Of a stretch of 21,501 nucleotides of DNA, positions 1 to 5,266 are shown one piece after another. Positions within the stretch are counted from its first letter, which is position 1. Every line of letters starts with the position of its first letter. Position numbers and translations under genes: made by a program. The notes beneath the pieces were generated by a model, which was given only the letters and a program-made list of their open reading frames with translations, did not search any database and was not told the DNA's origin. Source of the DNA: a virus; the IMG/VR virus record IMGVR_UViG_3300001589_000237, positions 1 through 21,501 of that record. The stretch is one strand, 5' to 3'.

Positions 1-78
1 AGCTTAAATCGTAAGGTGTTGTGTTTAAAATCTGCGGCCTCTCGGCAATTTTCAGAAGCATCCGAGAGATTTTCTTAG
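1..78 (+). CDS. Possible C-terminal end of an upstream gene (partial)
   Basis: Frame 1 is open from the window edge to a TAG at 76-78, giving 25 residues ending in ASERFS. The other two forward frames close within the first 12 bases. Nothing in the peptide is recognisable. The same bases form a strong inverted repeat (39-45 with 62-68), so the stretch may instead belong to a structured RNA. It is listed because it could be the tail of a real gene cut by the window edge, but support is weak. Confidence 0.2.
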   Translation, partial: SLNRKVLCLKSAASRQFSEASERFS

Positions 79-254: not shown

Positions 255-416
255 ATGGAATGGTATCACCCGTCACACTATCAGAGAATACGCAAAGAGA
301 ATAAGAAGTTTCTCAAAGAACATGATTCGGCCCCTGTACATATACGAGACGTAGAGAGAAGGCGGCCTAAGGCATTGATAACAAACAATAAAAGAAAACC
401 CTTGACAAAGACATAG
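255..416 (+). CDS. Small basic protein, 53 aa, unknown
   Basis: ATG at 255 to TAG at 414-416. The product begins MEWYHPSHYQ and is rich in Lys/Arg, with a basic centre (VERRRPKA) and tail. No known family is recognised. It lies 35 bp after the predicted start site of P1 and is the only sizeable ORF in that transcript before P2. No good Shine-Dalgarno sequence is visible upstream, and the end of the ORF overlaps the -35 box of P2 (402-407). It could be a small early host-takeover protein or a chance ORF; length and promoter context are the only arguments. Confidence 0.4.
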   Translation: MEWYHPSHYQRIRKENKKFLKEHDSAPVHIRDVERRRPKALITNNKRKPLTKT

Positions 417-430
417 GATTATGTTATAGT
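397..430 (+). promoter_or_regulatory. Sigma70-type promoter P2
   Basis: TTGACA at 402-407, 17-bp spacer, TATAGT at 425-430 (5/6 to consensus). It is preceded by the shared block AACCC (397-401). The predicted start, about 437, places the structured RNA (485-596) and the tRNA gene (623-699) in its transcript, so P2 is the likely promoter of a stable-RNA operon. Confidence 0.75.
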
Positions 431-484: not shown

Positions 485-596
485 GAGCGCTCATAGTATT
501 CTTGAATTAAGGATGTTGTGGCCCACATAGGACGTTCAGTCTGAAAGTTCCTCGTAGAGGTGTGGGATTGAAGTTTCATTATGTCTATGGGCGCTC
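485..596 (+). ncRNA. Candidate structured RNA upstream of tRNA-Asp
   Basis: 485-496 (GAGCGCTCATAG) pairs with 585-596 (CTATGGGCGCTC) over 12 consecutive pairs including one G-U. Inside, 522-527 (CCCACA) pairs with 561-566 (TGTGGG), enclosing either two 4-bp triloop hairpins (535-545; 550-560) or one longer hairpin (529-533 with 547-552 plus 535-538 with 542-545). Between the outer and inner stems is a large asymmetric internal loop (497-521 and 567-584). No ORF of note covers it. It lies in the predicted P2 transcript, 26 bp before the tRNA. T4 itself carries two stable RNAs of unknown function (species C and D) in its tRNA cluster, which is a precedent for the location. The family is not recognised. 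Confidence 0.5.
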
Positions 597-622: not shown

Positions 623-699
623 GGAGGCGTAGCTTAGTTGGTTAAAGCGTCTGCCTGTCACGCAGAAGATCGAGAGTTCGAGTCTCTTCGCTTCCGCCA
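623..699 (+). tRNA. tRNA-Asp (anticodon GUC)
   Basis: Complete 77-nt cloverleaf. The acceptor stem is 623-629 with 689-695 (one G-U). The D arm has GCTT/AAGC around AGTTGGTTA. The anticodon stem TCTGC/GCAGA carries loop CTGTCAC with anticodon GTC at 657-659. The T arm GAGAG/CTCTT has loop TTCGAGT. Discriminator base is G696, followed by an encoded CCA (697-699). GUC with G73 is the bacterial tRNA-Asp identity set. It probably belongs to the P2 transcript with the structured RNA. A phage-borne tRNA with encoded CCA is typical of T4-like genomes. Confidence 0.95.
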
Positions 700-4648: not shown

Positions 4649-4956
4649 TGCCAGCAGTAGTAAGAATAGGAGATAGTTTATCAACAGGTCATGGTTGTTC
4701 TAGCACAACAACTATTGCATCTTCGAATCAATCTACAAATAATGTTTTTGCAAACGGAATATTAATTGATGTGGTTGGAGCTCCAACTGTATCTCATCCT
4801 TTTGCACCACCAGTACTTTGTGTGCCACATGTCGCAAATTTAAATGCTGGATCATCAACTGTTTTTATTAATGGCATTGCAGTAGGACGTATTGGCGATA
4901 GTGCTGATGCTGGAGCAATGACAAGTGGTTCATCTAACGTATTCGCTGGAGGGTAA
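4648..4956 (+). CDS. 5.4: PAAR spike-tip protein (gp5.4-like)
   Basis: 102 aa, starts on TAATG with gp5. It shows PAAR features: N-terminal PAVVRIGDSLSTGHGC, central GAPTVSH, CVPHVANLNAGSSTVFING and C-terminal GRIGDSADAGAM with a terminal SSNVFAGG. His15, Cys17, His50, Cys58 and His61 are available to bind a metal ion at the tip, as in PAAR proteins of T4 and type VI secretion. The cone-shaped tip sits on the gp5 needle and is the first part to contact the membrane. Length and gene order (gp5 then PAAR) match the family. Confidence 0.9.
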   Translation: MPAVVRIGDSLSTGHGCSSTTTIASSNQSTNNVFANGILIDVVGAPTVSHPFAPPVLCVPHVANLNAGSSTVFINGIAVGRIGDSADAGAMTSGSSNVFAGG

Positions 4957-4957
4957 C

Positions 4958-5266
4958 ATGATTAATATAACAGACGAAGCATTAAATCATATAGAGAGTA
5001 TTGCTAAAGATAACAATAAAAAATTTGTTCGTCTCGACCTTAAAGGTGGCGGATGTGCTGGATTTGAATACGCATGGTCTTTCGAAGACGAAGAACAACG
5101 CAACGATATGATTGTCAAAGACGTTCTATTGATTGATAGAATGCATGAATTGTATTTGTTAGGAATGGAATTAGACTTTAAAAAAGATATTTTTGGATCA
5201 CAATTCGAGTTTAACAATCCCAATGCGAAATCTTCTTGTGGCTGTGGCACCTCCTTTTCGTTATAA
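4958..5266 (+). CDS. A-type Fe-S cluster carrier (IscA/HesB-like)
   Basis: 102 aa from ATG 4958, chosen because GGAGG at 4948-4952 is well spaced. A longer in-frame start (4925) lies inside the PAAR gene and lacks such a site. It has the three conserved cysteines of A-type carriers: Cys33 in LKGGGCAGFEY and Cys94/Cys96 in KSSCGCGTSF near the C-terminus. The helix/strand layout and length match (E. coli IscA is 107 aa, C35/C99/C101). These proteins bind [2Fe-2S] clusters or iron and deliver them to apoproteins in the cytoplasm. Here it lies directly between the spike tip and the next baseplate genes, so it is expressed late. It may serve the nearby iron enzyme, mature a metal site in the tail tip, or act in host metabolism. 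Confidence 0.9.
   Translation: MINITDEALNHIESIAKDNNKKFVRLDLKGGGCAGFEYAWSFEDEEQRNDMIVKDVLLIDRMHELYLLGMELDFKKDIFGSQFEFNNPNAKSSCGCGTSFSL

Follow-up and report, generated by a model that had tools for sequence, protein, structure and literature searches.

A covarying structured RNA, partly linked to tRNA genes, in uncultured marine T4-like phages

Phage T4 carries two small RNAs, C and D, beside its tRNA genes, and to our knowledge no function is known for either. GOLLD and ROOL are structured noncoding RNAs from phages and prophages; their function is not known, and some of them lie near tRNAs. Within marine T4-like phages, the structured RNAs described include manA, wcaG, PhotoRC-II, the glutamine riboswitch, and other motifs (PMC2864571, PMC9004378). 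In addition, Ocean-VI has been presented as a marine-only candidate RNA with no Rfam accession given, so that it lies beyond what a cmscan comparison can exclude (PMC2864571).

The stretch of viral DNA analysed here (the window, 21,501 nt) is a 21.5 kb record with T4-type baseplate genes, recognised by their Gp5_OB, gp25, gp6, and gp8 domains, and with a PAAR match just below its cut-off. In the phage collection, the gp6 sequences closest to that of the window, with 47–50% amino-acid identity, belong to the Pelagibacter phages Mosig and HTVC008M and the Methylophilales phage Melnitz. An IscA-type gene (Fe-S_biosyn, positions 4925–5266), possibly an auxiliary metabolic gene, was also seen among the baseplate genes. 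The original prediction, made from the letters of the window, had placed a structured RNA with no ORF between a strong promoter and a tRNA-Asp gene. This position was correct, as the RNA interval lies between a predicted promoter (402–430) and tRNA-Asp (623–699), which probably shares its transcript, and no ORF of at least 60 aa overlaps it (Table 1).

Table 1. Features of the RNA element and its surroundings (window positions unless a locus is named).
Feature	Position	Strand	Details
Predicted sigma-70-type promoter	402–430	+	TTGACA-17-TATAGT, TG before −10; consensus scan 11/12
P1 outer, 5' strand	485–496	+	GAGCGCTCATAG; 12 bp with 585–596, one G-U
P1 inner, 5' strand	503–506	+	TGAA; adjoins core; partner 575–578
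J1/2, internal loop 5' side	507–521	+	UUAAGGAUGUUGUGG; conserved
P2, 5' strand	522–527	+	CCCACA; partner 561–566
P3 hairpin	530–542	+	GGAC-GUUCA-GUCU; window-type subfamily only
Linker	543–549	+	GAAAGUU, conserved; AAAGUU in 35/36 aligned members, invariance partly imposed by the pattern scans
P4 hairpin	550–560	+	CCUC-GUA-GAGG; pairs 1–3 canonical 36/36
P2, 3' strand	561–566	+	UGUGGG; partner 522–527
J2/1, internal loop 3' side	567–574	+	AUUGAAGU; varies across family, always GU at end
P1 inner, 3' strand	575–578	+	TTCA; partner 503–506
P1 outer, 3' strand	585–596	+	CTATGGGCGCTC; partner of 485–496
tRNA-Asp(gtc)	623–699	+	ARAGORN; Rfam tRNA 71.2 bits; 27 nt after RNA
TTGTGTTTAAAnnCTGCGGCCnCTCGGCAnTTTT-like stretch	window 19–56; L004:1703–1741; L015:930–968; L017:179–216; L018:594–631; L021:4389–4422		

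The 12-bp closing stem with one G-U pair (485–496/585–596) and the inner stem (522–527/561–566) that had been proposed are both present and kept by compensatory change, and the further hairpins proposed inside them correspond to P3 and P4. The internal loop is strongly asymmetric, with 15/8 nt in the window. The energy of the RNA interval 485–596 is better than that of its dinucleotide shuffles (z −3.7), and that of a slightly wider stretch, 480–600, likewise (z −3.1). Of the conserved helices, the minimum-energy fold of the window RNA alone (−39.1 kcal/mol) contains the outer stem and P4 but neither P2 nor P3, and the conserved fold scored on the same sequence reaches −34.3 kcal/mol. Since the minimum-energy fold prefers other interior pairs, the support for the interior of the window fold comes from covariation, not from energy. 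Switching through alternative inner pairings (529–552 versus 550–560) had also been suggested; these alternatives are not conserved, and the conserved model contains both P3 and P4, as two distinct hairpins.

Homologues were first collected from loci retrieved through a gp25-like ORF, nine of which had a similar stretch about 5 kb upstream. In these, the sequence of the closing stem differs and yet stays complementary, as in L021 (GCCGAGACTTCT/AGAGGTCTCGGC) and L004 (CTATGGCA/TGCCATAG). A covariance model built from seven sequences (R1) found two distant members, L060 and L071, without P3 and with UUCACA paired to UGUGAU or UGUGAA in P2 instead of CCCACA/UGUGGG. IMG/VR was then scanned with patterns derived from both types, which enlarged the set to 45 distinct sequences in viral contigs, window included, after nine pattern matches (L237, L240, L296, L298, L300, L302, L303, L310, and L311) had been judged false by eye; a second model (R2) recovers all 45, with 38.7–90.6 bits. 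The members, about 80–110 nt long, share a common architecture: P1, J1/2 with the motif UUAAGGNNG..UGG in nearly all of them, P2 (NNCACA/UGUGNN), an optional P3, AAAGUU, P4 abutting P2, and J2/1 ending in GU. Part of this invariance, that of the AAAGUU linker included, was imposed by the pattern scans, and relaxed scans yielded variants in both J1/2 (UUGAGG, UAUUGG) and the linker (AAAGAU, GAAGUU). Two members, L294 and L301, have an extra hairpin, CTAGGA...TCCTAG, within J2/1 and CGCACA/UGUGCG as P2.

Fourteen member records were searched over their full length, and every one of them carries exactly one copy. No copy with a credible score was found in nine cultured phage genomes searched whole (Mosig, Melnitz, HTVC008M, Syn1, S-MbCM7, S-CAM3, S-PM2, P-TIM68, and Cr30), and a scan of host genome contigs gave 26 pattern matches, none of them a member (best R2 score, 16.6 bits). 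The RNA family is spread through uncultured marine T4-like phages, and it marks an uncultured part of this group, because the cultured Pelagibacter and Methylophilales relatives that were tested are without it.

In the 45-member alignment, which was fitted to the model and hence leans towards it, 94.2% of the pair cells are canonical, against 67.1% after shuffling and 40–61% with the partners slid. Both sides had changed in 289 cells, against 88 after shuffling. When 36 members were aligned by sequence only, 89% of the P1 and P2 cells were canonical, compared with 66% shuffled and 43–58% slid; the members are related, so that cell counts are not independent events, which the slid control partly addresses. 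By stem, the core-proximal pairs of P1 (503–506/575–578 in the window) are canonical in nearly all members, with varying pair types; the two loop-side pairs of P2 vary among C-G, U-A, and G-C around an invariant inner CACA/UGUG; pairs 1–3 of P4 occur as several pair types; and P3 is present in 7/7 long-type members with different pairs. A lack of compensatory changes in homologues, named beforehand as grounds for giving up the original prediction, was therefore not seen; such changes exceed the controls, as in a structured noncoding RNA, and comparison of the sequences clearly points to a real RNA whose fold has been preserved by evolution. Among the paired cells, G-U (35) outnumbers A-C (13), which identifies the plus strand as the RNA strand.

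The proposal that the RNA was an undescribed one stood up as well, the stems covarying in 45 sequences with no Rfam 15 match besides tRNA. At gathering score, Rfam 15 detected in the window and 16 member contigs only tRNA, plus a glutamine riboswitch elsewhere in L219. A cmscan of the window region at E<=5 returned tRNA only, and at E<=10 two homologues gave only implausible sub-threshold matches. No description of the RNA was found in the literature, preprints and most subscription journals being outside the coverage.

In the window, the predicted start of transcription lies near position 437. Across the family, 35 members could be tested, and in 19 of them the roughly 100 nt preceding the RNA contain a TTGACA/TATAAT-type promoter with a score of at least 10/12; among random windows the share is 4.4%. 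Where short-type members have such a promoter, its −10 box in many cases ends 16–27 nt before UUAAGG, so that the predicted transcript would begin near the base of P1; the predicted start of the window type is about 50 nt further upstream. Runs of at least four T follow P1 in 12/44 members (background, 10%), which suggests that P1 may act as the terminator of some copies; as these runs are found in a minority only, the 3' end of the RNA is not defined in most members. Two more strong sigma-70-like promoters, both with TG before the −10 box, were noticed in the window at 185–213 (12/12) and 900–929 (10/12), and, with strong promoters flanking the RNA/tRNA unit, the first kilobase has the look of a region of early genes. 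In L229, L305, L307, and L308, the −35 box TTGACA immediately before the RNA lies in the loop of what appears to be the terminator hairpin of the preceding gene; AGAGGACTTGACATGGTCCTCTTTTTTT in L307 is an example of this overlap.

The setting in a tRNA transcription unit, also part of the original prediction, recurs in the family, as a same-strand tRNA starts 60–460 nt after UUAAGG in 13/45 members, where 0.44 would be expected. L292 has a tRNA-Thr whose end directly adjoins P1 on the upstream side, which raises the tRNA-linked total to 14/45. The linked tRNAs are of six identities (Asp, Arg, Cys, Thr, Trp, and Ser). Some members have protein neighbours of the 2OG oxygenase/gp5/gp25/gp6 kind; in others, DNA polymerase B precedes the RNA or a RecA-family, UvsX-like protein follows it. 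As both the tRNA identity and the flanking genes vary, a free-standing, trans-acting RNA is most likely. In one subgroup (L217, L229, L305, L307, and L308), P1 is followed within a few tens of bases by an RBS-like GGAG and an ATG, as it would be in a leader, and this speaks against a free-standing RNA.

Two further noncoding stretches were observed around the element. The motif (C)n-CCYUAAAACUG(R) occurs at 799–809 in the window and in L004:2405, L015:1445, L021:4916, L060:811 and 1298, L209, L215, and others. A contig has one or two copies, which follow the RNA in the same orientation and in some cases lie within a GCCC/GGGC hairpin; the motif could be another RNA or a regulatory site. The other, noncoding-looking stretch, TTGTGTTTAAAnnCTGCGGCCnCTCGGCAnTTTT, is conserved in most of the closest relatives, where it precedes the RNA by a few hundred bases.

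Several additional structural or binding features were considered and rejected. A G-quadruplex from GGUUGGUUGG fails because the G-runs are broken in the window type, and a CsrA-type GGA site is present only in members with UUAAGGAUG and is not family-wide. A pseudoknot between UUC of the P3 loop and GAA of J2/1 is possible in 7/7 long-type members, but GAAGU also occurs in L229, which has no P3. Finally, pairing of UUAAGG and AAAGUU with a downstream CCYUUAAAACUG looked suggestive by eye, but C-rich copies such as CCCCCCUAAAACUG do not fit it, and some members have no such motif.

We favour, with about an even chance of being right, a free-standing RNA that would act in trans by presenting its core to a protein, probably of the host, as a decoy or modulator. 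The RNA would be transcribed from the host-type sigma-70 promoter, presumably early in infection, either alone or as part of a tRNA transcript, out of which it would be cut by host nucleases. The RNA folds into P1, the asymmetric internal loop, P2, the AAAGUU linker, and P4, plus P3 in the window subfamily. The 5' strand of the loop and the linker are probably its working part, because they are nearly fixed while the stems change freely, and the same pattern suggests that the loop is read by a partner. The variable neighbours, the promoters near the base of P1, and the closed fold argue for a free-standing molecule. During takeover of the host, the core would be offered to its protein; that the partner is a protein, and which one, is the least certain part of the explanation. 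A bolder version, which we hold only as a speculation with some chance of being true, would make it a new class of trans-acting phage RNA, present as a single early copy, whose internal-loop core captures a host protein involved in transcription, translation, or RNA processing; if so, a marine-phage RNA would do a job that T4 does with proteins.

The main rival is a cis-acting leader, namely a riboswitch, an attenuator, or a put-like antitermination element acting on its own transcript. Strong promoters do stand close before the RNA, and tRNAs or ORFs after it; one of its subgroups has the ORF soon after P1 already described, and the conserved nucleotides of the loop would be fitting for a ligand pocket or for contact with polymerase. 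However, the gene downstream is not conserved, as tRNAs and different protein families take this place rather than related genes, and in the window it is a tRNA 27 nt away. Moreover, no alternative terminator or sequestering pairing is conserved, and a T-run comes right after P1 in some copies (L209, L222, and L246), so that we consider a leader unlikely. Less probable again is an element of the tRNA operon that serves maturation or tRNA handling, for example as a processing signal or by touching the tRNA through the invariant UGG. Here the strong tRNA linkage, with the tRNA-Thr abutting P1 in L292, and the UGG before P2, which by eye could pair with the CCA end, have to be set against the 32/45 members without a tRNA within 460 nt downstream, and a complementarity of three bases is no evidence.

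A likeness to 6S RNA had also been put forward, in which the RNA would mimic an open promoter and bind the host RNA polymerase. The two share a closing stem, an internal bubble, and a terminal stem-loop, and an RNA directed against the sigma-70 polymerase would suit an early phage gene. However, there was no Rfam 6S match, and 6S covariance models did not match the window and two homologues in a permissive cmscan. In place of long duplexes and a near-symmetric bubble, the phage RNA has a 15/8 nt loop conserved in sequence on its 5' side and a distal part of 6 + 4 bp (P2 and P4) interrupted by the linker. Known 6S RNAs have a downstream duplex longer than these roughly 10 bp, which are too few for it, and we regard the 6S reading as quite improbable. 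We give slightly less credit still to a self-cleaving ribozyme; such ribozymes are known from phages, and the small compact fold and conserved internal loop would fit one, but no Rfam ribozyme was matched and the pattern of conservation points to no cleavage site. At the bottom of the scale stands a DNA-level element (a cruciform, an origin, or a protein site) that only resembles RNA. P1 is indeed an inverted repeat and there is one copy per contig, but without the folding of one strand as RNA no excess of G-U over A-C would be expected, and the promoter reads the same strand that this excess favours.

The covariation in this new family, absent from Rfam 15, is strong enough for immediate use, as the alignment supplies a model with which viromes and metatranscriptomes can be searched and points out the bases to mutate. 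If the RNA acts in trans, it would add an RNA to the known means by which phages take over marine bacteria. Alongside T4 RNAs C and D, the family allows a direct test of why small noncoding RNAs are retained next to tRNA genes in T4-type phages.

Among known RNAs, the phage RNA is about half as long as 6S RNA and differs from it in its asymmetric loop with one sequence-conserved strand. GOLLD and ROOL are ornate RNAs of several hundred nucleotides, whereas the new RNA is small and without an Rfam match. The manA, wcaG, PhotoRC-II, glutamine riboswitch, and other motifs of marine T4-like phages are mostly found in the 5' UTRs of genes, and none of them matches the new RNA in cmscan. RNAs C and D of T4 (rnaC and rnaD, species 1 and 2), annotated as small stable RNAs in NC_000866, had been named as a precedent, and this stands as regards location but not as regards homology. 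They are likewise small RNAs of about 100 nt in a T4-type phage, beside tRNA genes, but their predicted folds differ, and they follow the tRNA cluster, whereas the new family usually precedes the tRNA. When R2 was run without filters on T4 68500–73500, the best overlap with rnaC scored 5.7 bits and none was listed on rnaD. In conclusion, with Ocean-VI outside the cmscan comparison, we rate this RNA as a new family of small noncoding RNAs beside tRNA genes in T4-type phages, with a fold of its own.
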